Shown here: piece after piece, positions 4,257 to 23,228 of the stretch
Position numbering within the stretch: position 1 is the stretch's first letter
Layout: every line of letters starts with the position of its first letter
Virus record (IMG/VR): IMGVR_UViG_3300047550_000942
Coordinates: 1-30,753 of that record
Reading direction: 5' to 3' (one strand)
Source of the DNA: a virus
DNA length: 30,753 bases
Translations under genes and position numbers: made by a program
The notes under the pieces: generated by a model
Told to the model about the DNA's origin: nothing
Databases searched by the model: none
The model's input: the letters and a program-made list of their open reading frames with translations, nothing else

Positions 4257-4281
4257 GTTTAAATCACTAGGAGGTGTAATA

Positions 4282-5427
4282 ATGTCGGAAGAAATCAAGA
4301 AAAATCAGCCAGGTACATCAGGCAATCTTGGTGGAACTGCTCCAGGACTCTATCAGGGTCAAGGTGCATTTGCATCAGGTTCAGATGCAGGTTCAAACGT
4401 ACCAGGCAATTACTCCGATGGTGGCGTAATTGGAAATATTCCAACAGCGCTGTCAGGAGTGACAACAGGTCCAAACGCAGTTAACCCTTCAGGTGATGCT
4501 GGTAGCGGTATTTTACGTCCTGAACAAGCACGTCGTTTTATTGACTATGTTTGGGATGCAACAGTACTTGCTCAGGATGGCCGTCGTGTAACTATGCGAG
4601 CCAACACAATGGAACTTGAAAAAGTTAACGTTGGTGAGCGTGTAATCCGTGCTGCTGCACAAGCAGTTGGCGATTTCACAAATGCTGGAGCAACATTCAG
4701 CAAGGTAGAACTTACAACCAAGAAGATTCGTCTAGACTGGGAAGTATCTGCCGAAGCACTAGAAGACAACATTGAAGGTGCTGCACTAGAAGACCATATC
4801 GTTCGTCTTATGACAAACGCATTTGGTAATGACATTGAAGATCTAGCCATTAATGGTGATGGATCAACAGGTTCATTCCTTTCAATCATGGAAGGTTTCG
4901 TTCACAAGGTACAAAATGATGGAGATGCACACGAGGCAGAGGTAACCGTTACTGACAATGCTTGGACAACAGGCGTTATGCAGGACATTATCCTTGCTAT
5001 GCCACGTAAGTATCGTGCAATCAAGAACAATCTAAAGTTCTATGCAGGCACAGATGCTTTCCAAGGTATTGTTAAGAATAACGGTACACTTGCAGATGCA
5101 GTTGCTGAAGCGTTTGCTGGACAAGTTCCAGGAAGCACACAAGCAAACCGTCAAAACTACTTAGACGGTGTAGGACAAACATTCGGTGGTGCTCGCACTA
5201 CCCGTGTTCTCGGTGTTGAAGTTCAAGAAGTTCCTTACTATCCAGAAGGATATGTCGATTTGACATTCCCACAGAACCGTGTATGGGGCTTCCAGAGAGA
5301 CATCACTGTAAACCGTGAGTATCAAGCAAAGAAGGACACTGTAGAATATACAGTATTCGTTCGCTTCGGTATTCAATGGGAAGAGCAGGATGCAATTGCA
5401 TTCGCTGACGCTGCTTCAGATTCCTAA
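4282..5427 (+). CDS. Major capsid protein (HK97 fold)
   Basis: This 381-residue protein begins with a Gly/Ser-rich N-arm, then RPEQARRFIDYVWD and the typical capsid segment with AQAVGDFTNAGATFSKVEL, KKIRLDWEVSAEALEDNIEG and NAFGNDIEDLAINGDG. The late KYRAIKNNLKFYAGTDAF and a C-terminal VRFGIQWEEQDAIAF are also HK97-fold hallmarks. The start at 4282 is fixed by AGGAGGTG at 4269-4276. The frame extends upstream to an ATG at 4177, but that would overlap the scaffold gene and lacks a ribosome site. It builds the icosahedral shell. Codon use is strikingly different from most neighbours: 15 of 19 Arg codons are CGT and only one is AGA/AGG, as expected for the most abundant virion protein. A strong hairpin follows the stop. 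Confidence 0.93.
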   Translation: MSEEIKKNQPGTSGNLGGTAPGLYQGQGAFASGSDAGSNVPGNYSDGGVIGNIPTALSGVTTGPNAVNPSGDAGSGILRPEQARRFIDYVWDATVLAQDGRRVTMRANTMELEKVNVGERVIRAAAQAVGDFTNAGATFSKVELTTKKIRLDWEVSAEALEDNIEGAALEDHIVRLMTNAFGNDIEDLAINGDGSTGSFLSIMEGFVHKVQNDGDAHEAEVTVTDNAWTTGVMQDIILAMPRKYRAIKNNLKFYAGTDAFQGIVKNNGTLADAVAEAFAGQVPGSTQANRQNYLDGVGQTFGGARTTRVLGVEVQEVPYYPEGYVDLTFPQNRVWGFQRDITVNREYQAKKDTVEYTVFVRFGIQWEEQDAIAFADAASDS

Positions 5428-5805: not shown

Positions 5806-6714
5806 ATGGATTTATTAAGAGTAGCCCCATACCCAATAGTAACTACTTGGGACGTGCCATTGGCCAACACAGCCTATACAATTTATGTTGAAGATATGGT
5901 AGACCATGTATTATCAAATACAGCGGTTACATCAAGTGCAAGTTCAACAATTACATACAGTATTAATCAGGCAGAGGCATTGCTTGATCGAAGTTTCTTA
6001 TTTCAAGTTTTAGACAGCAGTAATAATATTGTTGTTGAAGATGAATTAGATTTAACAAGACCATACGTAGACCCAAACTCACTTGGTTCAACAGCATCAG
6101 AGATTGCTGAATACAAAGAACTAGAGATGGTGGCAAGGTCAATTATTGATACAATTATTGTTGATGGATTTTATAACTCAAAACAAATAGTACAAGGAAC
6201 AGGACAAGGATCAGACTATTTTAGTATTTGGAAAGACTTTAATAAAATTTTAAAAGTTTATGAAAATAATATTTTAATATATGATTTTGAAACACCAGAT
6301 GACAATATATATACATTTAATATAACTGCAGATAATGCTGCAGTACAAAGAGTAGCAGATGCCGAATATAATAGAATAGAACAAGGAGCAATCACATTGC
6401 CTCCAGCATATGGAGATCTTGGCTCTGTTGGCACTGGAAGAATCGTAGATTTTCCAAGAGGCTATGACTATACATTCGTACTAGATGCAGGCTATAAGTC
6501 AGTTCCGTCAGACATTGAATATGCAACAAAGTTATTAATAGAAGATTTAAAATGTGGAAAATTAGATTACTATAAAAGATATGTTACTTCATACAATACT
6601 GATCAATATAAGATAGGATTTGACAAAAGAGTTCTTGACGGAACTGGCAATATGATAGTTGATAAAATTTTAGATAAATACATTAAAAACATTACTAGGC
6701 CAGGTGTAATTTAA
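5806..6714 (+). CDS. Putative head-tail adaptor (connector) with N-terminal Ig-like domain
   Basis: This 302-residue protein starts immediately after the preceding stop. Residues 1 to about 95 look like a beta-sandwich (short alternating strands, Ser/Thr-rich). From about residue 100 a helical segment (SEIAEYKELEMVARSIID) resembles the first helix of gp6/gp15-type connectors that dock under the portal. Near the C-terminus, a segment around IEYATKLLIEDLKCGKLDYYK also fits the adaptor helical core. Role and family are inferred from order (capsid, connector, stopper, tail completion) and helix pattern, not a diagnostic motif. It ends one base into the next gene (TAATG). Confidence 0.6.
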   Translation: MDLLRVAPYPIVTTWDVPLANTAYTIYVEDMVDHVLSNTAVTSSASSTITYSINQAEALLDRSFLFQVLDSSNNIVVEDELDLTRPYVDPNSLGSTASEIAEYKELEMVARSIIDTIIVDGFYNSKQIVQGTGQGSDYFSIWKDFNKILKVYENNILIYDFETPDDNIYTFNITADNAAVQRVADAEYNRIEQGAITLPPAYGDLGSVGTGRIVDFPRGYDYTFVLDAGYKSVPSDIEYATKLLIEDLKCGKLDYYKRYVTSYNTDQYKIGFDKRVLDGTGNMIVDKILDKYIKNITRPGVI

Positions 6715-7160
6715 TGATATGCGAACCAAACGACTTTATTCACCCAATGTGTGCAGATGTTTATTATTCAATAAGCACACAGGGTGGTTATGGTGAAATA
6801 AAAAAAGAATGGTTGCTTGATAGAACAATAGCATGTAATGCTGCACCAGCAAGCAGAAGTGGTTTAGAAGAATTAGATCCAAAGATGATTGCTCAACTTA
6901 ATAATAAATTAAATGCTAGATCTTTAACAGATTTGAGAATATCATCACTAGATAAACCGTATGGCATAACTGACATATTGATTACAAATATTAAAGATAA
7001 GCATGGGAATTTAATATATAAAGAAACCTCTGGAATACGTGCAGGCAAGGGGACAATATATGAAATAGCAACAATTCAACCATTTGTTGGCCCATTTGGA
7101 AATGTAGAATCTTATCAGATGGTTTGGAGAAGAACAGATAGTCAGGCTTCGGTAGACTAA
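6714..7160 (+). CDS. Putative head-closure (stopper) protein
   Basis: This 148-residue protein is mostly beta-strand in pattern, with an early YYSISTQGGYGEIKKEW stretch typical of small SPP1 gp16-like/head-stopper proteins (a beta-barrel in which the region Y-x-x-x-x-x-x-G-x-x-x-x-x-W recurs). It overlaps both neighbours by a single base (TAATG at each end), so it is translationally coupled to the adaptor and to the next neck gene. The assignment rests mainly on order and size. The C-terminus reaches a conserved-looking YQMVWRRTD. Confidence 0.5.
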   Translation: MICEPNDFIHPMCADVYYSISTQGGYGEIKKEWLLDRTIACNAAPASRSGLEELDPKMIAQLNNKLNARSLTDLRISSLDKPYGITDILITNIKDKHGNLIYKETSGIRAGKGTIYEIATIQPFVGPFGNVESYQMVWRRTDSQASVD

Positions 7161-7837
7161 TGAACGTTGTATTTAATACCAAGGTATTTGAAAAAAAGAT
7201 GAATAATCTAGTCGATTATTCTTTTGGATTTCTAGATGGAATAGATGACGGGAAAACTTTATTTTTAAATAATTTAGCAAGGGGAACTGTAGAAGCATTA
7301 AAATTATATGTAGATGCAATGGCAAGAAGCAATCCAGATTCTTTGCATCACGTATATGAATGGTATAAGGTTGGAAGAATGGATGGGAGATTATTTGATG
7401 TTAAGTATTCAGTTAGCAAACTTGGAATAGTCATTGAGTCTAGTTTTAGGCAATCTCAGTCAGTGCAGAGTGGATCTAAAGAGCCATTTTATAATAAGGC
7501 TAAAATTATGGAAAATAGAACTCCCGTTATTATTAGGCCAAGAGGTGATAACCCATTAGTATTTGAAGATAATGGAACAACTGTATTTACTAGAAAAACT
7601 ATTATCAACCAATTTCCTGGTGGAAAAGATGTTCAGGGGGCATATGAAAAAACATTTGATGATTTCATGATGAGATACTTCACCCAATCATTCTTAACTT
7701 CCACTGGTCTATACGATTACCTAAGCGATCCAGAAATATACAAAAAGAACTTGGCTGCTGGAGTAAAGGGTGGAAGATCAGTTGGAAAATCTACAGGGTT
7801 CAAATGGATTGTAAACGCAAAAGTTGAGGTAGAATAA
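7160..7837 (+). CDS. Putative neck/tail-completion protein (gp10-like)
   Basis: This 225-residue protein has an N-terminal helical part and a later segment (EPFYNKAKIMENRTPVIIRP) seen in neck or minor head-tail proteins of this gene order. A basic, Gly-rich stretch (GVKGGRSVGKSTG) precedes the C-terminus. GRSVGKST superficially resembles a P-loop, but there is no Walker B, and its location near the end of a small neck gene argues against an ATPase. Starts with TAATG overlap. Function is assigned from position between head closure and tail terminator and remains tentative. Confidence 0.5.
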   Translation: MNVVFNTKVFEKKMNNLVDYSFGFLDGIDDGKTLFLNNLARGTVEALKLYVDAMARSNPDSLHHVYEWYKVGRMDGRLFDVKYSVSKLGIVIESSFRQSQSVQSGSKEPFYNKAKIMENRTPVIIRPRGDNPLVFEDNGTTVFTRKTIINQFPGGKDVQGAYEKTFDDFMMRYFTQSFLTSTGLYDYLSDPEIYKKNLAAGVKGGRSVGKSTGFKWIVNAKVEVE

Positions 7838-7841
7838 GAAT

Positions 7842-9206: not shown

Positions 9207-9890
9207 ATGGCAACAACTGTTTATCAAACTAAAAATGTTTATTCTGTTTCTGGATTAGAAATAGAAGTTGGTCCATTAAAAATAAAATACTTAAGACAGT
9301 TTATGGATATTTTTGAATCTATAAGACAATCAAAAAACGATGAAGAGTCTATTGAAATATTAGCCAAGTGTGCTCAAATTGCCATGAAACAATTTTATCC
9401 AGAATTTGGAAAATCATATACTGATGTAGAAGATAATTTTGACCTACCAACAATATATCAAATATTAGATGCTGCTGCTGGAATAAAAATGAAAAAAAAT
9501 ACAGACGAGTCAGTTAAGAGTCAGGCTGAAGATAGTGATATGACCTGGAAAGATCTTAATCTAGTTAAACTAGAGTCTGAGGCATTCTTGCTCGGGATAT
9601 GGAAAGACTACGAAGAATTAGAATTATCTTTATCTATGCCAGAGTTGATGGCAATACTTGAATCAAAAAGAGAGTTAGACTACGAAGAAAAAAAATTCTT
9701 AGCAGCAATACAGGGAGTGGATTTAGATAAAAATAAAGCAAAAGAAGAGGACCCTTGGACGAGGTTAAAAAATAAGGTATTTAATCAAGGAAGAGATGAT
9801 AAAGACATTTTAACCTTTAAGGGCGATAAAGCAAGGAGAGCAGGGTTTGGAATAGGCATGGGTTTAGACTACGAAGATATGACAAAATAA
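9207..9890 (+). CDS. Tail assembly chaperone, long form (paralogue A)
   Basis: This 227-residue protein is the long, GT-like chaperone that sits just upstream of the tape measure gene. Its first about 95 residues (PLKIKYLRQFMDIFE, then CAQIAMKQF and DLPTIYQILDAAAGIK) are clearly homologous to the separate short gene at 9948. The remaining about 130 residues are charged and helical (DLNLVKLESEAFLLGIWKDY, then LSMPELMAILESKRELDYEE), like the T extension of lambda-type chaperones. The domain junction coincides with a run of eight A at 9492-9499. The start follows a TATAAT by six bases and has no Shine-Dalgarno (leaderless). All seven Arg codons are AGA/AGG, consistent with low expression. Chaperones of this kind bind the tape measure during tail assembly and are absent from the virion. 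Confidence 0.8.
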   Translation: MATTVYQTKNVYSVSGLEIEVGPLKIKYLRQFMDIFESIRQSKNDEESIEILAKCAQIAMKQFYPEFGKSYTDVEDNFDLPTIYQILDAAAGIKMKKNTDESVKSQAEDSDMTWKDLNLVKLESEAFLLGIWKDYEELELSLSMPELMAILESKRELDYEEKKFLAAIQGVDLDKNKAKEEDPWTRLKNKVFNQGRDDKDILTFKGDKARRAGFGIGMGLDYEDMTK

Positions 9891-9947: not shown

Positions 9948-10283
9948 ATGGCAACAGAAAAAACAACAGGTACTCAATTAGTCCTAATGGATGGAACAAA
10001 GATTAGTGTACGTCCTTTAAAGATTTCATTATTGAGACCATTTATGAAGAAGTTCGAGCAAATCGCAGCAGTAGCAGAAGACAACGATAAGTCTATGACT
10101 CTACTTTTGGAATGTGCTCAAATCGCAATGCAGCAATATAGTCCAGAGATAGCAGAAGATATTGATAAGTTGGAAGAGATCCTAGATCTGCCGACAGTTT
10201 ATCAAATTATTGAAGCAGCGTCTGGTGTTAAGTTAGCAGATGCTAATGCTTTACTTAATACTGTACTTGCAAATACTAACTAA
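9948..10283 (+). CDS. Tail assembly chaperone, short form (paralogue B)
   Basis: This 111-residue protein aligns along its whole length with the first about 95 residues of the gene at 9207. Shared blocks are the MAT start, PLKI followed by LR-x-FM and FE, CAQIAM, and DLPT-x-YQI with AA-x-G-x-K. It lacks the T extension and is equivalent to lambda gpG. In most siphoviruses both products come from one gene by programmed frameshifting. Here they are two adjacent genes, apparently from duplication. It has a separate promoter-like element and ribosome site. There is no slippery run at its end and no reading frame into which it could shift before the tape measure. Homology with its neighbour is seen directly; function is inferred from place and size. 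Confidence 0.82.
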   Translation: MATEKTTGTQLVLMDGTKISVRPLKISLLRPFMKKFEQIAAVAEDNDKSMTLLLECAQIAMQQYSPEIAEDIDKLEEILDLPTVYQIIEAASGVKLADANALLNTVLANTN

Positions 10284-10305: not shown

Positions 10306-13300
10306 ATGGCTGATGTAAACGCTAAAATTGGCGTACAAATTGATACGTCGGCCGCATTAGCAGAGTTAAAAGCCCTACAAAGACAGTTAGCAAATTTTCA
10401 TTCTTCTGTAGCAAAGGGAAGCGCAGCATCTGCTGCAGCACAAAAGAATTTACAGTATAACCTATTAAATGCTATAAATTCTACTGGTAAGTTCTATGCC
10501 CAAATGGGGCTAGTCCGAACATCTACGGAATCATTTACTCATGCACTTGAGAAAAACAAACTCTCAATGCGTGAGTATTTCCGTTATGCTGGCGGAGCAT
10601 CAAGAACATTTGGTAAATTATTTAAACAAGAATTTGACACAATAGGTAAGGTTGCTGAAGAACGTGTCAAGAAAATGTCTACCCAGTACATCAAGATGGG
10701 GCGTGATGCATCTGGTGCCATGAAGGCAATGTCGATTACTCCGACAACGCTAAACATGAAAGATTATGGTACACAGGTAGCATTAGCAGCACAAAAACAA
10801 GCATTATTTAATCAACTTTTAAAACAAGGCTCTACCAATCTTTTAAATTTTGGTAAGAATACTCAGTGGGCTGGTCGTCAGTTGATGGTTGGTTTTACAA
10901 TACCATTAGCATATTTTGGTACTGCTGCTTCAAAGACTTTTATGGATCTTGAAAAGCAAGCAATTAAATTTAAACGTGTCTATGGTGATATTTTTACAAC
11001 AACAGAAGAAACAGATAAGGCTCTTAAAGATATTCAGCAACTTGCACAGGAGTTTACAAAGTACGGCGTTGCAGTTACAGACACTATGGAAATGGCAGCA
11101 CAGGCTGCTGCGATGGGTAAGACTGGCGCAGATTTAATGGCGCAGGTGGCAGAAGCAACTCGTCTTGCAGTACTTGGCGGGGTAGAACAAGCACAAGCAT
11201 TAGAAACAACAATATCAGTTACAAATGCTTTTGGTATAGCAGCGGATGATCTAAGAAAGAAAATTGATTTTCTTAACGCTGTTGAAAACCAGACTGTAGT
11301 ATCTATTGAGGATTTAACTGTAGCAATTCCAAAAGCGGGTCCAGTTGTCCAACAACTAGGAGGATCTGTTGAAGATTTAGCCTTTTTCTTAACCGCAATG
11401 AAAGAGGGCGGTATTAATGCATCAGAAGGTGCTAACGCATTAAAGTCTGGACTTGCATCTCTTATTAATCCAACAGATAAAGCATCAAAAATGCTTGCAG
11501 GTATGGGTGTCAATATAAAGGCTATTGTTGAAGGAAATGCTGGTAATTTAAAAGAAACAGTAATTGATTTTGCTCAAGCACTAGATACATTAGATCCATT
11601 AAACAGAGCAAGAGCAATTGAACAATTATTTGGAAAATTCCAGTTTGCAAGATTATCTACTCTGTTCCAAAATATTACTAAAGATGGCACACAGGCAAGC
11701 AGGGTTTTAGATCTTGCCTCTGCATCAGTAGAAGAGTTGGCTATCCTATCAGAACGAGAATTAAAGAAGGTTGAGGATGCAGTAGGAGTTAACTTTAAAG
11801 AGGCTGTTGAAAAACTAAAAGTTGCTATTGCCCCAATAGGTAAAATATTTTTACAAACAATAACTCCGTTGGTTGAGGTTATAGGTAGATTACTTGATAA
11901 GTTTGATAATCTTAGTGATGGTACAAAAAAGTTTGTTATTGTAGCGGGTACATTAATTGGAGGAATTGGACCAGTTTTATTGATGACATTTGGTTTAATA
12001 TCAAATGCTATTGCTAATATTATTAAGTTATTTGTCACAATGCGTACTGGATTTTTAAGAGCAGGTACTACATCTAAAGTTCTTGCAGATCAAACACAAT
12101 ATTTAAATTCAGAGCAATTAGAAGCAGCAACAGTTGCAGCATCACTTAATCAGGCTCATAATAGATTAACTCAATCTTTCCAGGCAGAGACAGTTGCCAT
12201 ACAGATGTTGCGTCAAGCATATATTGATGCGACTGGTGCAGCAGCAAGATTCTCTGCTGTAAATCCAGGAATGATGAATCCAGGATTTAGAGGTTTTGGT
12301 CCAAAGAAATTTGCTTCAGGAACCACTGGAGTTGTTGGTGGTACGCCAGGCAAAGACTCAGTGCCTTCATTATTGATGCCAGGTGAAGCAGTTATTCCAG
12401 AGGCTATAGCACAAGATGAAAGATTTAAACCACTGGTAGAGGCTCTTGTAACTGGAAAGATAGCACAATATGGAGACGGAACAGTATTTGCACATGCAGT
12501 AGATAAAAAGGTGCTTAGTGGGGCGGGAGTTCCAGAAAGCATTAAAGCATTAGGATTCAACAGTGCAAATGCATTTACTGCAATAGGTTTTGATTTAAGT
12601 CCAGAAACTAACTCTAGATTAATAAACATAAATGTTCCAGTTCAAGATTATTTAAATGAAATAAATAAGCCTGGATCAACAAAAACAATGACTGCAAGAT
12701 TAATCGATCTTGGGGTAGATCCAAAAGATGCAGTTAGGGTTACGTCTCAAATAAGATCAAACCTTGCTAACTCTTTGTTAGGAATTCCTTCAGGAACAAT
12801 GATTGGTGATTCAGATATTTATTCTAGAATGGGAAATCTCAAGACAGGAGTATTGGGAGGTTTGGTAAGAAAATCAAGAGGTGGACTATTTGGTCAAGCA
12901 ATTAGATCATTGTACTCCCCAACTGCATATAGCCCTAGAGGTCTTTCAACAATTAAGATGAACTCTAATGTTCCTGTTTCACAAGTTATTGAAGCAGTAA
13001 AGAAAACAAGGACTTCACAGAGTGCAATAAGTGCTTTACGTAGAGTTCAAGAATTGGATCCAAACTATAGAATGCCAGTTAAGTTGGATTCTGCAGGAAA
13101 TATTGTTGCATTTGAAAGACCAGAAATTAGTAAGAGAACTGGTGAAATAAGTAATACTAGAGTAATTGGTGCTCTTCAGGGAAATAGATTTACAACTGCA
13201 AGATTAAGTCGTGGTGGTGGAAGAAAAATAACGCCAAGTCGTGGAGCCATGGAAATGGCAACACAGTTATTGGTTGGTAGAGGAGAAATTGTTCAAACTA

Positions 13301-16300
13301 AAGATGGCAGAATGCAAATGGTTACAAGTACAACTGGAAAACCAAAGGCTTCTCGTTCTAATGTTTTTGGTGGCGGTATATCAGATAAAAGATCATTACC
13401 ACTAACAACAGTTCGTAGAGTTATTCCTAGATTCCGAGGAATGGCACTGGGGGCCGAAGATGGATATCCACCAGTTGCTGGAGGAAAATCTTTTAGTCAG
13501 ACAGCCAGTGGACTTTTAGTACCACAAAGTGCTCTTGTTAATGCTTTAGAAAAAAATAGTGAAGCAGTTGATAATGGAACAAAAACACAGACTCAGTCAA
13601 GTAAAACACAAAAAGAAATAATTAAAGAACAGAGACAGGCAAGAGCAGATAGGATAGGAAGAGTTGCAGGACCTCTATCTATGGTTGCAGGTACCGCTGC
13701 TATGGCTGGATATGCTACAGGAAATGCTGGTATGGGAAATATTGCTATGGGAATTTCTGGTCTTGCAATGGTTGCACCAATGCTTGCAAATCCATTAGGT
13801 GCTACCGCAGCAGCACTTACTGCAATGACCGCAGCAGTTGTTCTAACTAGAAAGGCATTTGATAAAGCACAAGATAGTGCAATGGAAATGGCAGAAGCAA
13901 TGGGGTCTGGCGATAAGGCTATTCAAGACCTTGCTATGTTTGCAGGAAGAGTTAGTGCTGGAGAAATAATGGATAGGAGAAGAAGTAACATTCTTAATCC
14001 ATTTGCAGTACAAACTGGAAAAACTACTTTTGGTGAAAATTTTGTTAAATCAGAAACTGGAAAAGCGATGGTGTCCAGCGTTACACAATCTATCAAGACT
14101 GGTGGAAGCCAGGCAGCACAAGGTCAAATATTAAATCAATTGGCAACTGGAATTGCCTCTGGTGCAATAGATCCAGCCCAGGCAAGAAGTATTGCTGCAA
14201 ATATTGCATCTGAAATTGGAGACTATTCATTTGGAATTAATGTTAATGCAAAATTAATTGAACTTTTTGGAGTTAATGGAGAAAATCTCATGAAGGATCC
14301 ACTTAGACTGAGAGTGGTTCTTATGGAAGAATCTCGTAAAGATTTACAAAAACAGTCACAGTCGCTTTCCAACGTAGCCCCAGGAGCAATGACACAAACT
14401 CAACTTAAGGTTGGTGCAATAGGCTATGGTGCAGCAGGAGCAGTTGCTGGTGGAATACTTGGAGCAACAGCAGCAGGGGCAACAGCAGGCTCAGTAGTTC
14501 CAGTAGTTGGAACAGCGATAGGTGCTGCAATAGGAGCCACAATTGCTGCTGGTGCTTTATGGTTTAGTCAAAAGGGACAACAAGAAAAGTTAGGTAGAGC
14601 ATCTGGGGCAAATGTTGCTATGCAGAAAATGGCTTTAGAACAAAGTCAACAGATGCAAGATTCATTAAAATTAGAATATGAAAAAAGAATTGCAAATGCA
14701 AAGGCTGCTGGAGATATTGCTAAGGCAGTTCAGTTGCAAGGAGAATATGAAAAAGCAAATGCAGAATTATTAGCACAAAATGGAAAATTAGTAACAGATA
14801 TACAAAACAGTTATAAAGGTGCTTCTGGCGCAGTACGTGGTGCCCTTGAGACTGGATTAGATAAACAAATTACTGCAAAATATAAGGGAACTGCAATGGC
14901 AGATATTGCCCCTCTTGCAACAGACCTATTGGGTGGTTCTGCACTATCTAAAGAACAACAATTTACAATTAAAATGCAACTGGCATCTGGACAAATGGAT
15001 CCAATGCAAATAGTTAATTTAATGGAAACTTTTGGAAAAGATTCAAAAACATTAACAAAGGTTATGAATATAGTTACAAAGTTTGGAGGAGCCTTTGCTG
15101 GGCAAGCAATGTCTGTTGCAGATCTATTTAAAGATAAAAAAGGCAATCCATTAAAAGAACAACAAACTAAGTTTATTGCTGATATTAGTACTAAAACATC
15201 TGAAGAGGCAGAGAAATATCTTAAGTTATTTGCTGAAATAAGTAGGGTTGGAAATGTTATGGATGTTGAAGTTGCATTAACATATTACAGTAACAATCCA
15301 TTAGCAGCAGCACAACTACAATCCACAATAGATAAAATTAATGAACAAAAAGGAAAAATAACATTAGATGTTGCAACTAAAATTCTAGGCGCTAAAGAAA
15401 TGGAAGCGCTAAGAAAAGATCAAGAATACTTTAGTAGTTTGCCAGCAGAACAACAAAAGGTATATTTACAAACATTAACAACAATAGCAAATATTCAAGG
15501 CACTAATGCTGAAGCAATTAAAAATTGGCTAACTCAAAATCCAGGAAAAACTGAAGCAGATTATTATATTGAGTCTGCACAAAAATTAACAAAGGTTAGT
15601 GTTGATAATACAATCCCTACTGGAGCAACAGACTCTCAAGACACAGGTAAAAGAGATACTACTTTTGATGATATTTTAATAAATTTAAAGAGAACTAGAG
15701 ACGCAACAATAGACGCCACTGGTGGAGCAAAAGAATTAATTAGAGTTTTAGGTGGTACTAAAGATATAACTATTTTTAAAGGTCTTGATCAGCAACTAGC
15801 AAGACTAGGAGCAAATACAGATTTTATTGAATTTGCTGGTGGCGTAGAAAAAGCAATTCAAAATAAAATAATTAGAGTAAGCAAAGATGGTGTTGCCTCA
15901 TTAACTGAATTGGGCAAGGCTGCAATGAAGGCTTATAATGAAAAACAACTAGGTTTGTATCAAGCAGGACAAATCAATGCAGCCAAAGGAGCAATTGCAC
16001 AAAGAGAAGCATTTGTTAAACTCAAGGCTGCTGGTGCATCAAGTGCAGAGGCATTAGAGTTGGTTGCTGACGCACAATTAGCAATATCAATTAACTCTCA
16101 AAGATCTGCTAAAGATGTTGACTTATTGGTTAAGTCATTGCGAAATGCTAAGAAAGAATCTGATAAGACATTTAGGGCAAATGATCCAGTAAGTGCTCTT
16201 GAGGAAGATATACAAAATATCAATACTATGTTTGATCTATATGAAAGACAGGCAAGGGCAAAATATGAGCCACAAATAGATAGGGTAAATAAATTAATTG

Positions 16301-17661
16301 ATGCTGCACAGGAACGTGTAGATGATTTACAAAGAAAAGCAGAACTAGAATATGACAGACCTATTCAAAAATTACAAGAGCAGACTAGTGCTTTGAATCA
16401 TGACCTAACATTAATCTCACAAGCAACAGATAAAATAAATGAAAAATATGATAAACAGAGAGAGGCTCTTGAAAAGGTTTATGCAATAAATGAAAGAATT
16501 GCACAGCAACAAAAATCTAAGATTGCTCTTGCAGATGCTTTAACACAAGGAGACATTTCTGCTGCTGCTCAGGCCATGGCAGATATGAGGTCTGAGGCTC
16601 AGGGTTACGCACAAGAAGATAGCCTAACTGCATTAGAGACAGCAAGACAAAACGAAATAAATGCATTGACCAGTTCAACTGGAATGACAAAAGTACAGAT
16701 TGAACAAAAACTGTTTGATATATCAGAAGAAATATATGCATTGGAAACAAAACGTCAAACTGTTGATGCAGAAATATTAAAACTTCAAGATGAAATTTAT
16801 AATTTACAGAATAATCAACTAAAGGTTGCAGAAAAAGCATTGGCTGCAGAACTTGAGGCAATTGATGCACAAAGACAAAAGTGGAATAATGTTCAACTTG
16901 CTATTGATTTTGCTAGGGCTAATGCTGCTGGATATAATCAATTATTATTAGATGCCGAGGCAACATTAACAAGAATGCTTGCTTTGTGGGCAAGTATGGG
17001 GTCTGGAATTACTATGGGGGCTATAGAAGGCGCTCTAGGCGGGGCTCCAGTAGAAGTCACATCTTTTGGCGGTGAAACAAAAACTGGCTCTAGTGGTACA
17101 ACTAAGAAAACAAATAATCCATCTGGTACTGGTAAAAAGGGCGCAGCAGCATCTGGAGGTTTTAAGACAGCAACAGCATATCGCTCATACAGGTCTGGTG
17201 AACGTGGAGATACTGGCATAACAACCTCTTCAGCAATGGCTTCTGGATATACCAATGCAAAAACATACCAATCATTCCGTGCAGGAGAAAGAATGTATGG
17301 AGGTTTGATAAAGAAATATAATGTTGGTGGAATTATTGCAGGTGCTGGTATGACAGATAAGGTACCCGCACTTCTGACCCCTGGAGAGTATGTTGTTAAT
17401 CGTGCTGCAACACAAAAGTTTGGTCCCCTATTAGAACAAATAAATGAATCTAAATACCCAGGAAGTTTATCTTTAGGCGGTACCCCAAGCATTTCTGCAG
17501 TAAATAATAATATGGTTAATAATAACTCTACCTCAGTGTATAATTATAGTTTGGATGTAAATGTTAGCGGAACAAATGCAAATCCAGATGATATTGCAAG
17601 AACCGTTATAGCACAAATTAGAAGCATGGATGCTCAAAGATTAAGGGGGAATAGATACTGA
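10306..17661 (+). CDS. Tail tape measure protein
   Basis: This 2451-residue protein is the longest in the window. Residues about 170-420 carry the TP901-type tape measure core (AQEFTKYGVAVTDTMEMAAQ, AFGIAADDLRKKIDFLNAVE, and EGGINASEGANALKSGLASL). Hydrophobic or Gly/Ala-rich stretches at about 544-582, 1124-1185 and 1369-1419 could form membrane spans used during DNA ejection. A long charged coiled coil runs about 1978-2198. The C-terminus has VPALLTPGEYVVN (from V2353), common in tape measures, and a second copy-like VPSLLMPGEAVIP occurs at V686. YRSGER-type motifs occur at 2295-2302 and 2324-2329. With the usual 0.15 nm per residue, it predicts a tail near 370 nm. No lytic domain is recognised. 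ATG 10306 is preferred over ATG 10302, which stops after three codons. It overlaps the next gene (TGATG). Confidence 0.95.
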   Translation: MADVNAKIGVQIDTSAALAELKALQRQLANFHSSVAKGSAASAAAQKNLQYNLLNAINSTGKFYAQMGLVRTSTESFTHALEKNKLSMREYFRYAGGASRTFGKLFKQEFDTIGKVAEERVKKMSTQYIKMGRDASGAMKAMSITPTTLNMKDYGTQVALAAQKQALFNQLLKQGSTNLLNFGKNTQWAGRQLMVGFTIPLAYFGTAASKTFMDLEKQAIKFKRVYGDIFTTTEETDKALKDIQQLAQEFTKYGVAVTDTMEMAAQAAAMGKTGADLMAQVAEATRLAVLGGVEQAQALETTISVTNAFGIAADDLRKKIDFLNAVENQTVVSIEDLTVAIPKAGPVVQQLGGSVEDLAFFLTAMKEGGINASEGANALKSGLASLINPTDKASKMLAGMGVNIKAIVEGNAGNLKETVIDFAQALDTLDPLNRARAIEQLFGKFQFARLSTLFQNITKDGTQASRVLDLASASVEELAILSERELKKVEDAVGVNFKEAVEKLKVAIAPIGKIFLQTITPLVEVIGRLLDKFDNLSDGTKKFVIVAGTLIGGIGPVLLMTFGLISNAIANIIKLFVTMRTGFLRAGTTSKVLADQTQYLNSEQLEAATVAASLNQAHNRLTQSFQAETVAIQMLRQAYIDATGAAARFSAVNPGMMNPGFRGFGPKKFASGTTGVVGGTPGKDSVPSLLMPGEAVIPEAIAQDERFKPLVEALVTGKIAQYGDGTVFAHAVDKKVLSGAGVPESIKALGFNSANAFTAIGFDLSPETNSRLININVPVQDYLNEINKPGSTKTMTARLIDLGVDPKDAVRVTSQIRSNLANSLLGIPSGTMIGDSDIYSRMGNLKTGVLGGLVRKSRGGLFGQAIRSLYSPTAYSPRGLSTIKMNSNVPVSQVIEAVKKTRTSQSAISALRRVQELDPNYRMPVKLDSAGNIVAFERPEISKRTGEISNTRVIGALQGNRFTTARLSRGGGRKITPSRGAMEMATQLLVGRGEIVQTKDGRMQMVTSTTGKPKASRSNVFGGGISDKRSLPLTTVRRVIPRFRGMALGAEDGYPPVAGGKSFSQTASGLLVPQSALVNALEKNSEAVDNGTKTQTQSSKTQKEIIKEQRQARADRIGRVAGPLSMVAGTAAMAGYATGNAGMGNIAMGISGLAMVAPMLANPLGATAAALTAMTAAVVLTRKAFDKAQDSAMEMAEAMGSGDKAIQDLAMFAGRVSAGEIMDRRRSNILNPFAVQTGKTTFGENFVKSETGKAMVSSVTQSIKTGGSQAAQGQILNQLATGIASGAIDPAQARSIAANIASEIGDYSFGINVNAKLIELFGVNGENLMKDPLRLRVVLMEESRKDLQKQSQSLSNVAPGAMTQTQLKVGAIGYGAAGAVAGGILGATAAGATAGSVVPVVGTAIGAAIGATIAAGALWFSQKGQQEKLGRASGANVAMQKMALEQSQQMQDSLKLEYEKRIANAKAAGDIAKAVQLQGEYEKANAELLAQNGKLVTDIQNSYKGASGAVRGALETGLDKQITAKYKGTAMADIAPLATDLLGGSALSKEQQFTIKMQLASGQMDPMQIVNLMETFGKDSKTLTKVMNIVTKFGGAFAGQAMSVADLFKDKKGNPLKEQQTKFIADISTKTSEEAEKYLKLFAEISRVGNVMDVEVALTYYSNNPLAAAQLQSTIDKINEQKGKITLDVATKILGAKEMEALRKDQEYFSSLPAEQQKVYLQTLTTIANIQGTNAEAIKNWLTQNPGKTEADYYIESAQKLTKVSVDNTIPTGATDSQDTGKRDTTFDDILINLKRTRDATIDATGGAKELIRVLGGTKDITIFKGLDQQLARLGANTDFIEFAGGVEKAIQNKIIRVSKDGVASLTELGKAAMKAYNEKQLGLYQAGQINAAKGAIAQREAFVKLKAAGASSAEALELVADAQLAISINSQRSAKDVDLLVKSLRNAKKESDKTFRANDPVSALEEDIQNINTMFDLYERQARAKYEPQIDRVNKLIDAAQERVDDLQRKAELEYDRPIQKLQEQTSALNHDLTLISQATDKINEKYDKQREALEKVYAINERIAQQQKSKIALADALTQGDISAAAQAMADMRSEAQGYAQEDSLTALETARQNEINALTSSTGMTKVQIEQKLFDISEEIYALETKRQTVDAEILKLQDEIYNLQNNQLKVAEKALAAELEAIDAQRQKWNNVQLAIDFARANAAGYNQLLLDAEATLTRMLALWASMGSGITMGAIEGALGGAPVEVTSFGGETKTGSSGTTKKTNNPSGTGKKGAAASGGFKTATAYRSYRSGERGDTGITTSSAMASGYTNAKTYQSFRAGERMYGGLIKKYNVGGIIAGAGMTDKVPALLTPGEYVVNRAATQKFGPLLEQINESKYPGSLSLGGTPSISAVNNNMVNNNSTSVYNYSLDVNVSGTNANPDDIARTVIAQIRSMDAQRLRGNRY
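17188..17292 (+). repeat. Two YRSGER-type peptide motifs in the tape measure C-terminus
   Basis: YRSGERGD (residues 2295-2302) and FRAGER (2324-2329) lie 29 residues apart, each preceded by a similar A/T-x-Y-x-S context. The same motif recurs twice in the protein encoded at 22398-23228. Confidence 0.7.
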
Positions 17662-18263
17662 TGGCTGGCATAGAATATTTAGTTGGTCGTCGTAAATATG
17701 CGCTACCGCAAGCAATGCTGTGGTCTGAAAATTCTGGAACACTAATAAGTGGATATTATTATCCAGATGGTTACGAAGTGGGTGCTGATTTTACTGGCGT
17801 ACCAATTGATGAAAGAAATACATTTTTAATATTATCAGATCACAACAGAACAGAACTATCTTTTGGTCAAGAAAGAATACAGAAAAGAGAAAGAATGATT
17901 AATGGTAATATGAGAGCATATAATATTGCAGATAAATTAAATCTTTCAACATCTTGGCAAATGCTGCCATCACGATCATATAAGGATAATCCATCTTTTA
18001 ATTCCGCAGGATCAACATTACTACGTGGTGGCCCAGATGAATTTACCGTAGACGGTGGTGCTGGTGGTTTGGAACTATTAGAGTGGTATGACAATCATCA
18101 AGGACCATTTTGGGTATTTTTAGCGTATGATAGATATGAAGATAAAACTAAATATAATCAGATAGTTCAAATGTACTTTAAAGATTTTAGTTATTCTGTT
18201 GTTAAAAGAGGACTGAATAATCATGACCTATGGAATATTAACGTAACCCTAGAAGAGGTATAA
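17661..18263 (+). CDS. Distal-tail-like minor tail protein
   Basis: This 200-residue protein directly follows the tape measure with a TGATG overlap. That is the position of the distal tail protein that connects the tube to the tip. It is beta-rich, with a GPFWVFLAYDRYEDKT segment and a C-terminal LWNINVTLEEV strand. N-terminal residues (GIEYLVGRRKYALPQ) are compact. I see no enzymatic motif. The next gene's ribosome site AGAGG lies in its last codons, showing tight coupling. Assignment is by position, size and beta character. Confidence 0.6.
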   Translation: MAGIEYLVGRRKYALPQAMLWSENSGTLISGYYYPDGYEVGADFTGVPIDERNTFLILSDHNRTELSFGQERIQKRERMINGNMRAYNIADKLNLSTSWQMLPSRSYKDNPSFNSAGSTLLRGGPDEFTVDGGAGGLELLEWYDNHQGPFWVFLAYDRYEDKTKYNQIVQMYFKDFSYSVVKRGLNNHDLWNINVTLEEV

Positions 18264-18265
18264 CA

Positions 18266-21200
18266 TTGTTTAGCAATTCTGATCTTGTAGAATATTTAAA
18301 AACATCAAATGACGTTTTTATTAATTCCGTTATTGTTTGTGAGTGGAATATGAATATTCCAGGAAATATTAAAAAAGTTGGTAATTATAGATATAGGCCT
18401 AATAATAATACAAGTATTTATAAAAACATTCCAAATACGTTTGATCCAGCAGACGCTGGAGATTATTATACAGATGCAGAAATTTCCTATGAGCAGGTAC
18501 AAAATACATATAATGTCAATAACACATTACAACTATTTCAATCAGTAGATCAAAAAAAATCCATGTATTATTCCATGGAAGACTGTTTAAAGCCTTTTAG
18601 ACCTAGGTCTGGAATAAATAAAGTTTTATTTTTTGATAAAAAATATATACCAACAAACGTTATGTTTGGGAACAATTCTCCAAGGTATTATATGTCTTCA
18701 AGAAATGATGTATTTAAATATTGGACATCGTATAGAAAAGAAGACGGAATTGAAAGAGGAATAGCCAATAAAACAATAAATAGTATTCATTATATAGAAG
18801 ACGCATGTCCATTTGTAGTATATAAAGAAAGTGTTCCATGTAACAGAATTGTTATTAAAATGCAAACTAATGTAGGCAAAGATGACCCAGGAACATTTCA
18901 AAATATAGTTGGAGTTAATCAAAGCCCATTTTATGGTAGTATAAATAAAACTATACCAGATAGATTTAAAATTCAAGTTCTTAAAAACAATAATTGGATT
19001 GATATATTAAGTATTGATAAAAATAGTAAAAGGTCTGATGGATCAGAGATAATTGAGGCAGATGGATATCTTGAGTTATCATATTTAAATAACGAATGGT
19101 TTTTAAGTTCTGAGAGTGTTGATTATAATACACCATTTGTTACTAAATTTGTAGATCCATTTAAAACTATAAAAAATGATAATACATTTTTTTACAATGA
19201 GTTTGACTATATAGATGGCATTAGGTTTGTAACCTTATCAATGAATAAGTTTGACTCAACCTTTGATCTAATAGAGATGTCGCCAAGGCTTACTGCAGAT
19301 ATATCAAATAATGTTTTGGATTTTAAAATAACAAAAACAATGTCGGATATGTCAACTGGTGCAATACCAGTCGGACAACTGCTGGCCTCAAATGGATCTA
19401 TATCAATTTTTGATGAAGAACTGGCATTTAATGAAAATAATAATGATAGTATTATAAAAAAATATTTAAATAAAAATATTAAATTTGTTTTTTATGAAAA
19501 TATATATAATAATGATTCAACAGTAGATTATTTTATTCCAATAAAAACTTTATATTCGGATAATTTTCCACAGACATCGGACGACGGGTCCTCCGTATCA
19601 ATAGATTTACGTGATTTTTATTTTTACTTTGAATCACAAATAGCACCAAGAATGTTATTAACTGACGTATCTTTAAGTTTTGCAATATCTACTTTATTGG
19701 ATTCTGTTGGTTTTTCTAATTATACCTTTAAAAGAATTGGTTTAGAAAATGACCCTATTATTCCATATTTTTTTGTTGCTCCAGATCAAAGTATTGCACA
19801 GGTATTAAATGATTTAGCAATATCAACACAGACTGCAATGTTTTTTGATGAATATAATAATTTTACAATTATGAGTAAAAACTACATAATGCCACAAGCA
19901 AATGAAAGACAGACGTCATTTACCCTTGTCGGAACCAATAATCAACAAGAGGTTAGCATAATAAAAAATAAACAGATGGTTGCAGAACTGCCAAATATAA
20001 TATCAATATCTTCTCAAGATAAAAAAATATATAATGATGGCAGAATTAACTATACATCTAGATATATACAAAAATCATACGGATCAATAAAACAAAGCAC
20101 ACTACTGGATAAAGAAAAGACTTGGGTGTATAAGCCATCATTATTGTGGGAGGTTTCTGGAGAAACAGCATTAAAAACTATAAATTCCAAAGTAGAAAAG
20201 CAGTCAAATTTTGTTTTGGGTGCTATGCCAATTAATTCAGATTTGTCAGAAATACCGCCATATGTCTCTAATGGAGTTATTATAAATAATACCGTAGATC
20301 TTGGAGAGAATATTTATTGGCTAACAAAATATAAAGGATATTTTTATTCTAATGGAGAAATAATACGATACGACGCCGTTCAATTTAATATAACCGCAAT
20401 TGGAAATGTTTGGATATCTAGCAATCAAGAGTATCAAGATTATATGGCTTCCCTACCATTTAACGGTAAAATGTATCCCACTGGACTTATAAGAATATTA
20501 TGCAATCCATATTACGAAACAGTTAGTGGTCAGACAAGAATAAAATCTGGTGCTGTTATGGAGCATGGACGTGGTCAATTTGGAACAAAAATTACTACCC
20601 ATAATGCTGGCATGTCTTCACACTGGACATCCGACACATATTTACGTGGATGCAATATGAAGTCAAGTTATTTATTTAATACAAGTTCCGAAATTGAGTA
20701 TCCATTATCACTAACAACTGGTGAGGCTGGTATTAATAACACGTTGGCAAAAAAATCATCAAGAACTGGAATTATTAAAAATTTCATGGCAAGTAATTAT
20801 TTGACCGAAACAGAACTCAATAGTTTACAGTCAACACAAAGTGGAACTATACAGTCTTCTGCATTAGTAATGTCTGGTCCATCTTTTAGTTCTACAGACA
20901 CGCCAGTAGACTTTATTTCATATGTTTATAAGCCATTAGATAACTCTTATAAACATTTTGGAACAAGGATAAGAATAGTGGGTAGTGTTGACACCAATGA
21001 AGATAGATTGCAGACACCTATTGGAAGTACGACATACTATCAATTACCAACAACTCAGCCAAATCAAAATTCTAATATTGGTGGAGGATCTGGTGGTTTA
21101 GGTATAATGATTAATCCAGAAACTAATAATGGATATTATTTTGAAATTGTTGCATTGACAGAAAAAAATGTTGAGTCATATTTAAAAATTAATTCTGATG

Positions 21201-22396
21201 GATCTTCAGAAAAAAATATATCGAATGTTGTTTTTTATAAAATTAAAAAAGATAGTTCTGGCAATGCAATACCAATTAAACTATGGTCTGGTCTAAGCAA
21301 CATTTTAGTAGATGATGGAAGATTTACTGGTCAATATCGGGTCTTTGGAGAAGAAAATCCTACAGTTTATGATCTTGCTGTTGAATATTCAAATGTAGGC
21401 ACAACACGAAAATTTTATTTGTATATCAATAATAAACTAGTTGGGGTTGTAGATGATACAGATCCTCTTCCAGTTTATAATAATGCCTGCCTATTTGTTC
21501 GTGGGGCGTCAAAATGTATGTTTGAAAATATATATGCTTTGGGAGAAAATTATTCACAAAATACAGTATTTAACGTTGCAGAATCAATTTCTTCAGTATT
21601 TGGAGCAAATGAGATTAATGCTAACTCTGCATTGAGAAAGTATGCAATGAGTGGAATTGTTCAGTCTACATATCTAAGTGGTGTTTCAAGTTCGCAGCCA
21701 CCAAAATATAACATGTATTATGATGAATTTGGATCTATTTTTAGAGAGGTTGCATACTTTAATATAAAATATGATAAGGCATATCCAGCACTATATGCAA
21801 AAATATCTCCAACCCCAACTACAATAAAGGGTTATGTTGTTTCTGGATTCCAGGCTGATTCGTACGGTGCAGAATTTTTAGTATTTAATGCAACAGATTC
21901 TGCTCTTAGTTTAGATGAAGGTACTGGCAATTATTTAAGAATTCAAGGTATAACATTTACCCAGGATACAACCTACACAATATCGGTAGATGATTATTTT
22001 AATAAAAAATCAAACTTTACAGAAATAGACAACATAGACACTAACACGATAAGGTCAGAACTTGTTAGTATTCAGGACTATAACTATATAAGACAAAGCA
22101 GAATAAATCATGGACTAAGTAGTTTTTCATTGGAGACTCCATATATTCAAACATCTTCTGATGCTGAAAACTTGTTGGGATGGGTAATAGAAAAATCAAT
22201 GAAGCCTAAAAAACTTATTGGTGCTAATATATTTTCATTACCAATTTTACAATTAGGTGATATTGTTAATATTGACTATCAAAAAGATGGGGTAGATATA
22301 GTTTCAGATAAAGACAAGCAATTTGTAATATATAATATAGAATATGAAAGAAATGTAAATGGTCCAAGTATGAGACTTTACATGGCGGAGGTATAA
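18266..22396 (+). CDS. Large tail hub/tip protein with a lectin-like insertion
   Basis: This 1376-residue protein starts at TTG 18266, with AGAGG at 18254-18258 seven bases upstream. An N-terminal beta-rich part contains CNRIVIKMQTNVG followed by FKIQVLKNNNWIDI, which resembles a discoidin-type carbohydrate-binding fold. The middle part around DISNNVLDFKITKTMSD, and the C-terminal LQLGDIVNIDYQKDGVDI with FVIYNIEYERN, fit a baseplate-hub (Tal-like) framework. Between about residues 881 and 1096 lies a LamG/concanavalin-like segment (FGTRIRIVG, then KFYLYINNKLVGVVDD and FENIYALG). So a hub appears to hold an inserted sugar-binding module, a candidate host contact site. No peptidoglycan hydrolase motif is recognised. 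Codons are strongly AT-rich, with AGA/AGG arginine. Hub role is inference. Confidence 0.7.
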   Translation: MFSNSDLVEYLKTSNDVFINSVIVCEWNMNIPGNIKKVGNYRYRPNNNTSIYKNIPNTFDPADAGDYYTDAEISYEQVQNTYNVNNTLQLFQSVDQKKSMYYSMEDCLKPFRPRSGINKVLFFDKKYIPTNVMFGNNSPRYYMSSRNDVFKYWTSYRKEDGIERGIANKTINSIHYIEDACPFVVYKESVPCNRIVIKMQTNVGKDDPGTFQNIVGVNQSPFYGSINKTIPDRFKIQVLKNNNWIDILSIDKNSKRSDGSEIIEADGYLELSYLNNEWFLSSESVDYNTPFVTKFVDPFKTIKNDNTFFYNEFDYIDGIRFVTLSMNKFDSTFDLIEMSPRLTADISNNVLDFKITKTMSDMSTGAIPVGQLLASNGSISIFDEELAFNENNNDSIIKKYLNKNIKFVFYENIYNNDSTVDYFIPIKTLYSDNFPQTSDDGSSVSIDLRDFYFYFESQIAPRMLLTDVSLSFAISTLLDSVGFSNYTFKRIGLENDPIIPYFFVAPDQSIAQVLNDLAISTQTAMFFDEYNNFTIMSKNYIMPQANERQTSFTLVGTNNQQEVSIIKNKQMVAELPNIISISSQDKKIYNDGRINYTSRYIQKSYGSIKQSTLLDKEKTWVYKPSLLWEVSGETALKTINSKVEKQSNFVLGAMPINSDLSEIPPYVSNGVIINNTVDLGENIYWLTKYKGYFYSNGEIIRYDAVQFNITAIGNVWISSNQEYQDYMASLPFNGKMYPTGLIRILCNPYYETVSGQTRIKSGAVMEHGRGQFGTKITTHNAGMSSHWTSDTYLRGCNMKSSYLFNTSSEIEYPLSLTTGEAGINNTLAKKSSRTGIIKNFMASNYLTETELNSLQSTQSGTIQSSALVMSGPSFSSTDTPVDFISYVYKPLDNSYKHFGTRIRIVGSVDTNEDRLQTPIGSTTYYQLPTTQPNQNSNIGGGSGGLGIMINPETNNGYYFEIVALTEKNVESYLKINSDGSSEKNISNVVFYKIKKDSSGNAIPIKLWSGLSNILVDDGRFTGQYRVFGEENPTVYDLAVEYSNVGTTRKFYLYINNKLVGVVDDTDPLPVYNNACLFVRGASKCMFENIYALGENYSQNTVFNVAESISSVFGANEINANSALRKYAMSGIVQSTYLSGVSSSQPPKYNMYYDEFGSIFREVAYFNIKYDKAYPALYAKISPTPTTIKGYVVSGFQADSYGAEFLVFNATDSALSLDEGTGNYLRIQGITFTQDTTYTISVDDYFNKKSNFTEIDNIDTNTIRSELVSIQDYNYIRQSRINHGLSSFSLETPYIQTSSDAENLLGWVIEKSMKPKKLIGANIFSLPILQLGDIVNIDYQKDGVDIVSDKDKQFVIYNIEYERNVNGPSMRLYMAEV

Positions 22397-22397
22397 A

Positions 22398-23228
22398 ATG
22401 CCAGGCGAAAATTCTGGTAATATGTATAGAGCACCTACACCAGTCGATGCTGAGACTGCAAGAGAGACTAGAAGGGCTGTGGTTGCCAATCCAGTTCAAC
22501 CAGTTGTCGCAGTTAAAGAAACATCTTCCTCAGATTGGTCTTCATATCGTTCTGGAGAAAGAGACTCTAAGCCTGCACCGCCACCACCTGATGTGCCTCC
22601 ATCAAAAAGCAATACACAAAATACAGACTGGGTACAGTATAGATCTGGAGAACGTGGGGACCCAATACAATATGTTGCAAATAATCCACCAATTGTTGAA
22701 GTTTTAAATTTTGGAGGTTTTATACCACCCGCAAGCATTTCTGCAGTGCCTCCGCTTCCAGTTGTTCCACCTGTGTCAGTACCAACAACATATAAAGTAA
22801 AAACAGCAACACCAGAAATTATTTTATTTGATGATGACTCAGTACCAGTTGAGGTTCTATCAGATTTAATATTTGAAAATATAGGCGGACAAGAACTTTT
22901 ATCTTTATCAAGACATGACATAATTAGTGGAGATTATGTTCCAAATCAATTAATTAAAAATCTTACATCATTAAAACAAGAATCTTCTTCAAAACGATTA
23001 CTAAGTTTACAAAATACTTCAGATAGATATTTTTCTAATTTTGGTATTAAATTAGAAAATAAAATACCTTTTGAGGGAAATGGTCCAAATGGCAGTAATG
23101 TTTATCTTGATGACTCACAAAATATTATAATAGAGTTGATAAATTTAGACATAGACGAGCAGGTAGAGGTACAACTCAGCGTAGGTGGTACAATATATAC
23201 TATAGTCCTTGGAGCATCAGAGTCGTGA
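22398..23228 (+). CDS. Tail-tip protein with YRSGER repeats and proline-rich linkers
   Basis: This 276-residue protein has an unusual architecture. It opens with a disordered-looking N-terminus and two copies of D-W-x-x-YRSGER (Tyr50-Arg55 and Tyr81-Asp88, 31 residues apart), separated by KPAPPPPDVPPSKS. A second proline-rich linker spans about residues 108-131. The C-terminal half is ordered (IFENIGGQELLSLSRHDI, then a strand-rich end at VQLSVGGTIYTIVLGA). The YRSGER motif also occurs at the end of the tape measure. This suggests that the two proteins present the same short peptide to a common partner such as the hub ring. It starts one base after the hub gene stop and overlaps the next gene by four bases (GTGA). 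I do not recognise an enzymatic function. Confidence 0.75.
   Translation: MPGENSGNMYRAPTPVDAETARETRRAVVANPVQPVVAVKETSSSDWSSYRSGERDSKPAPPPPDVPPSKSNTQNTDWVQYRSGERGDPIQYVANNPPIVEVLNFGGFIPPASISAVPPLPVVPPVSVPTTYKVKTATPEIILFDDDSVPVEVLSDLIFENIGGQELLSLSRHDIISGDYVPNQLIKNLTSLKQESSSKRLLSLQNTSDRYFSNFGIKLENKIPFEGNGPNGSNVYLDDSQNIIIELINLDIDEQVEVQLSVGGTIYTIVLGASES
22545..22661 (+). repeat. Two YRSGER motifs in the tail-tip protein
   Basis: SYRSGERDS and QYRSGERGD, both preceded by Asp-Trp. They use different codons (CGT and AGA for the first Arg, AGA and CGT for the last), which argues for conservation at the protein level rather than a recent DNA duplication. Confidence 0.7.

Follow-up and report, generated by a model that had tools for sequence, protein, structure and literature searches.

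Why do two separately encoded components of one phage tail carry the same short peptide, each of them twice? The question is raised by the IMG/VR virus record IMGVR_UViG_3300047550_000942, whose 30,753 bases constitute the window. The motif YRSGER is shared by its tape measure protein (TMP) and by a 276-residue protein of the tail-tip region (P276). In the C-terminal linker of the TMP, YRSGER is located at 17188..17205 (plus strand, residues 2295-2300, within AYRSYRSGERGD; unstructured and of low confidence in the structure model), and the variant FRAGER at 17275..17292 (plus strand, residues 2324-2329, within TYQSFRAGERMYGG). P276 holds YRSGER at 22545..22562 (plus strand, residues 50-55, within SDWSSYRSGERD) and at 22638..22655 (plus strand, residues 81-86, within TDWVQYRSGERGD). 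The initial annotation had reported these four copies in pairs spaced about 30 residues apart; both statements hold, the distances being 29 residues in the TMP and 31 in P276. Shuffling the residues within each protein gave an expectation of 0.001 occurrences of [YF]R[SA]GER in the 9,570 amino acids of the window, against 4 observed. Translation of the window in all six frames revealed no further R.GER. Upstream, the motif reaches as far as a W or Y at a distance of three residues; downstream it continues with GD in most relatives.

The likeness resides at the protein level, as the annotation had supposed, because the codons of the copies differ and their identity is close to the codon-usage background. 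The first arginine is encoded by AGG, CGT, CGT and AGA across the copies, the second by CGT, AGA, AGA and CGT, and codon identity between the window copies is mostly at about the level given by the codon usage of the genome. A recent DNA duplication or gene conversion as source of the likeness was rejected, codon identity being near background in the window and in L029, L092, L143, L084 and L016. AlphaFold models gave a predicted local distance difference test (pLDDT) score around or below 50-55 at all four sites, without clear secondary structure. These models are poor overall (mean pLDDT 59 for P276, 56 for the TMP C-terminus) and support only disorder at the motif sites, in agreement with the flexible context originally predicted. 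The motif is short, lies in a disordered context, is conserved at the protein level and recurs in unrelated proteins, which are the general features of short linear motifs.

Many relatives of P276 and of the adjacent tail hub protein are present in IMG/VR. These window kin are presumably freshwater phages, judging from the kind of record and the literature. The N-terminal linker of P276 is almost wholly changed between phages, and its C-terminal domain is conserved. The TMP linker preceding the conserved C-terminal end is as variable as the P276 linker. Within 159 relative loci (2.06 Mb), the motif was confined to the open reading frames (ORFs) of the TMP and P276; with a looser pattern, a single stray variant (WKYADR, in the 184-residue protein P184) appeared among 268 loci. 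A motif common in unrelated genes of these loci was thus rejected. Two relatives, L011 and L088, carry the motif in both the TMP and P276, so that it is not absent from relatives in both genes; the position of the second TMP copy reads YRAGER in L011 and FRAGER in L088. In L083, P276 contains YREGER and the TMP a LysM domain. In L082 the P276 copy is degraded to YRAEER and the TMP linker lacks the motif, and L093 and L094 possess YRSGER in P276 only. In most kin YRSGER is missing from one or both genes.

Other peptides, here called cassettes, take its place. The pool common to both linkers comprises YRxGER, GTPFGQAG, SQFGSNTPWA and LysM. SQFGSNTPWA is present in two copies in each of the TMP and P276 (L028, L029, L190), and in an 89-kb record it is found solely in the TMP frame and a P276 frame of 274 amino acids. 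In six whole records of 30-102 kb, PF01476 (LysM) exceeded the cut-off only in frames with the length and place of the TMP, P276 or both; three non-redundant genomes carry LysM in the two proteins together. None of the window proteins matched PF01476 above the cut-off. In the window kin, LysM thus takes up the places that the peptides hold in the TMP and P276. Unlike them it is a folded domain of ~43 residues, to which YRSGER and GTPFGQAG bear no detectable relation.

Matching of the cassette class between the TMP and P276 of one genome was evaluated in 115 non-redundant genomes by reassigning P276 among genomes. Nine same-genome matches were observed, compared with a permuted mean of 0.88 and a maximum of 7 in 100,000 permutations (p ~1e-5), in a test that ignores relatedness, counts three YRxGER genomes that are near kin, and uses a list of classes compiled after the linkers had been inspected. 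Local-alignment scores of whole linkers pointed in the same direction (p 0.003 and 0.007). As the tests ignore ancestry, the classes are post hoc and most genomes are unmatched, the matching is a clear tendency and not a rule. Sharing of 6-mers between P276 and the TMP occurs at about twice the rate between the TMP and other proteins; the pair of P184 and the 374-residue protein P374 scores higher, and 6-mer counts alone are therefore weak evidence. A longer cassette, GTPGYEGM..QIE.ERRRESGN, was noticed in the TMP linker of L020 and L021 and in the P276 linker of L142; its presence in the TMP of one lineage and the P276 of another indicates that cassettes can change protein between lineages. 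A VTGTRVVDGRTV cassette, present up to twice, was seen in TMP linkers only (L110, L117, L122, L163, L184, L191).

The cassettes are also found outside the window kin. Scans covered 2.9 million viral contigs; they select the exact peptide and show its whereabouts, not its variability. The pattern W..YRxGERGD, which biases the YRxGERGD scan to the W form, gave 42 stretches. Of these, 2 belong to P276 proteins of window kin and 39 to a short-TMP family, while the match in L296 is a 54-residue frame that looks like chance. Members of this family have ~480-545 amino acids, some being truncated at contig ends, and carry the motif close to the C-terminus, often as two copies ~40 residues apart. The short protein of L277 has no PHROG match of its own; its gene follows those for terminase, portal, capsid, head-tail adaptor and major tail protein and precedes a minor-tail-like gene, which identifies it as a TMP by position. 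Same-cluster members L323, L344, L358 and L364 match tape measure families.

GTPFGQAG occurs in at least 120 stretches, mostly in TMPs. With the motif masked, the in-frame proteins among the matches listed comprised 96 in one short-TMP cluster, 7 long TMPs of window kin, 4 P276 proteins, 16 proteins of the phrog_8424 type and otherwise single cases, one of them an 848-residue TMP-like protein with both GTPFGQAG and FRMGEEKSM. In the main cluster, again among the matches listed, 93 of 117 copies lie at most 120 residues from the C-terminus. FRxGEEKSM was found in 12 stretches, in frame in 11 and always 47-111 residues from the C-terminus. Its carriers are several kinds of TMP-like protein, so called from their length, their N-terminal sequence and, for L429 and L438, homology to the L277 family. 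The distinct DNA versions number at least 119 for GTPFGQAG and 39 for YRxGERGD. In L423, GTPFGQAG directly precedes an apparent M23 peptidase domain (HTGLDFPA...GPHLHLE, read by eye) in a TMP-like frame of 910 amino acids.

YRxGERGD, GTPFGQAG and FRxGEEKSM all occur in TMP types without detectable similarity to the window TMP as well. The co-occurrence for which the annotation had proposed a search across phage tail proteins is seen in both genes of L011 and L088, but TMPs of unrelated phages carry cassettes without P276. A dedicated docking pair of TMP and P276 is therefore unlikely to be the whole story. The idea of a two-component short linear motif survives as a protein-level motif in the disordered linkers of two tail components; its restriction to these two does not.

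In 84,980 bacterial and archaeal genomes, scanned for the W..YRxGERGD form only, 7 stretches were detected; five are open frames of 41-130 amino acids resembling chance, and L312 and L316 contain no in-frame peptide of this form. Among cultured phages, GTPFGQAG and FRxGEEKSM queries gave no match, and the YRAGER query gave only matches with E ~1 in Corynebacterium phages.

The interchange of cassettes is most directly visible in ten aligned short TMPs (bodies 49-91% identical), which possess two C-terminal slots followed by a conserved end. The slots hold YRAGERGD, FRMGEE, QRGEY or GTPFGQAG alternatively. A third carrier, the phrog_8424 protein of the virion module, has GTPFGQAG in one to three copies at its N-terminus, where LysM is found in L331 and FRKAEE in L360. 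Its gene is located at 3804-5066 (minus strand) in L376 and at 6301-7839 (minus strand) in L391, in both cases beside scaffold and major capsid genes; further along in the L391 record there is a portal match, with a protein of 1626-1945 amino acids between. The N-terminus also contains a GGINSQGYFNDxP stretch, the like of which (GGVNAQGYFNDVP) is present in P276 of L039, L044 and others. The phrog_8424 proteins of L376, L391, L331, L360 and L407 and P276 display the same N-terminal cassettes, including an NWERN start, and are not detectably related proteins. As a guess, the phrog_8424 protein might be ejected at infection.

LysM is a known peptidoglycan-binding domain. Its alternation with the peptides, the position of the slot next to the tip end, the tandem arrangement and the recurrence in dissimilar TMPs led to the proposal that the cassettes are envelope-binding. 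They may be short linear binding elements, placed in the disordered linkers of proteins that are exposed to the host envelope or enter it at ejection, with a role like that of LysM; this tentative reading is the favoured one and quite possibly correct. The set would include YRxGERGD, FRxGEEKSM, QRGEY, GTPFGQAG, SQFGSNTPWA and a true LysM domain, sited beside conserved protein ends, namely in the TMP linker that immediately precedes the tail-tip end and in the N-terminal arm of P276. Each cassette would be a weakly binding peptide, gaining multivalency from the tandem copies and from the oligomeric state of the TMP and the tail tip. The hosts of these phages would have the target in common, either a cell-wall component or an exported constituent of the envelope; the lack of an evident phage partner shared among the families argues for the host side. 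The P276 arms might keep the tail tip attached to the envelope, and the emerging TMP, bearing the same peptide, might engage the same target during channel formation. One genome would accordingly carry the same cassette in the TMP and P276 because both face the same target. The tail tip contains the TMP C-terminus, and the TMP is thought to exit the tail and span the envelope (PMC10721106, PMC5099701). A wider version is conceivable and somewhat doubtful: unrelated freshwater phages would use a common code of swappable cassettes on the proteins that lead ejection, each cassette reading one envelope target of the host, and selection would keep TMP and tail-tip arms in register.

Beyond the limits of the permutation tests, several points weigh against envelope binding. 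LysM alone among the cassettes has a known ligand, and tight glycan binding by peptides of 8-12 residues is unlikely. The majority of window kin show no matched cassette, which means that the cassette is not essential as such. No second cassette-bearing ORF was found in 128 short-TMP loci (0.98 Mb), and sharing with a second protein is thus a trait of the window kin. Finally, a phage-side partner conserved in structure and not in sequence is possible.

This last point leads to the main rival, in which the cassette is a ligand for a pocket on the hub, the distal tail protein or the P276 domain and anchors both the end of the TMP and the arm of P276 to one ring during assembly. In lambda and TP901-1 the tail tip houses the C-terminal end of the TMP (PMC10721106, PMC5099701), the slots have fixed places beside the conserved TMP end, the TMP and P276 of one genome carry the same cassette, and a pocket could persist without sequence conservation. 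Docking nevertheless appears somewhat unlikely. The hub and the P276 domain are 43-85% identical among kin while the cassette class changes or vanishes, the same peptide is found in TMP types without detectable similarity, and LysM would be an odd substitute for a docking peptide. The variability of the linkers might also be taken at face value: recombination would exchange short coding fragments, and the cassettes would be circulating spacer of little function. Hypervariable and mosaic linkers, tandem cassettes and the many kin without any fit such neutral shuffling. A neutral spacer, however, would decay, whereas one peptide of 8 residues, GTPFGQAG, exists in at least 119 DNA versions, and codon identity between same-genome copies is near background. 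The slots are conserved in the aligned short TMPs, and cassettes are nearly restricted to the ends of the TMP, P276 and phrog_8424 proteins (for GTPFGQAG, among the matches listed), so this explanation is considered unlikely. Far less probable still is a proteolytic processing site recognized by a phage or host protease, as in lambda gpH, the C-terminal part of which is removed by processing. The site adjoins the conserved TMP end and the motif is charged, exposed and disordered, but a single protease specificity would poorly explain two to three copies in tandem, several classes unrelated to each other and the presence of LysM at the same slot, and in P276 and the phrog_8424 protein the cassette is N-terminal.

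Several described systems offer partial parallels. Lambda gpH resembles the TMPs described here in having a special region near the C-terminus and differs in that the cassettes are repeated and swapped. Known systems tie the TMP to host envelope factors in genome injection; to our knowledge, none of them involves a linear cassette or a copy in a second protein. The nearest precedent is the set of small motifs 1-3, including mt3, in mycobacteriophage TMPs (Pedulla 2003; Piuri and Hatfull 2006, PMC1796659). Mt3 hydrolyses peptidoglycan and aids injection into stationary cells, and it is dispensable for viability (PMC1796659). In both cases small modules recur inside the TMPs of several phages. 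The mycobacteriophage motifs resemble host cell-wall proteins, and mt3 acts on peptidoglycan. The present cassettes are linear peptides of 8-12 residues near the TMP C-terminus; they occupy interchangeable slots and are also found in another virion protein. No enzyme domain was detected in the window TMP or P276 in a Pfam search. Literature searches on the cassette peptides, and on short linear motifs in combination with the tape measure protein, found no description; nor was an account found of cassettes that combine such shortness with interchange between slots and presence in a second protein. The manner in which the TMP meets the cell envelope in genome delivery has been termed obscure (PMC5099701), and interchangeable peptides at fixed slots by the tail-tip end of the TMP provide concrete residues to test. 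In uncultured phages the cassettes further provide a marker by which TMPs and tip proteins can be spotted, and they may offer a readable link between cassette and host.

The genes around the motif stand in the order TMP, a 200-residue distal-tail-like protein, a 1376-residue hub, P276, and then the 374- and 184-residue proteins; the first four are encoded on the plus strand of the window. The TMP gene (10306..17661, 2451 amino acids) matches PhageMin_Tail (PF10145, E 2.3e-28) and phrog_10030, tail length tape measure protein (E 1.5e-103). Its conserved C-terminal end past the cassettes (MYGG.IKKY...PALLTPGEYVVN...NYSLDVNV...) is encoded at 17293..17661 (residues 2330-2451) and contains every one of the 15 invariant columns among 50 relatives. 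The 200-residue protein (17661..18263), assigned by gene order and a weak phrog_1194 match, lacks the motif in 113 relatives. The hub or minor tail protein (18266..22396; phrog_10359, minor tail protein, E 2.6e-56) lacks it in 158. Distant relatives of the hub are found in Streptomyces and Rhodococcus phages only, which suggests an actinobacterial host for the window phage. P276 (22398..23228) consists of the hypervariable disordered N-terminal linker (residues ~1-130) and the conserved C-terminal domain (~131-276). It matches no Pfam or PHROG family, and INPHARED contains no relative of it among cultured phages. A PDB profile search with P276 alignment A1 gave a single match, 7uek chain A (named OT3), at E 5e-5. 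Inside the window TMP, a KDSVPSLLMPGEAVIPEA stretch at about residue 685 resembles the C-terminal DKVPALLTPGEYVVNRAA of the same protein. Upstream of the TMP gene, two similar adjacent ORFs (9207-9890 and 9948-10283) share the pattern ...LKI..LR.FM..FE...C.QIA and look like duplicated tail assembly chaperones.

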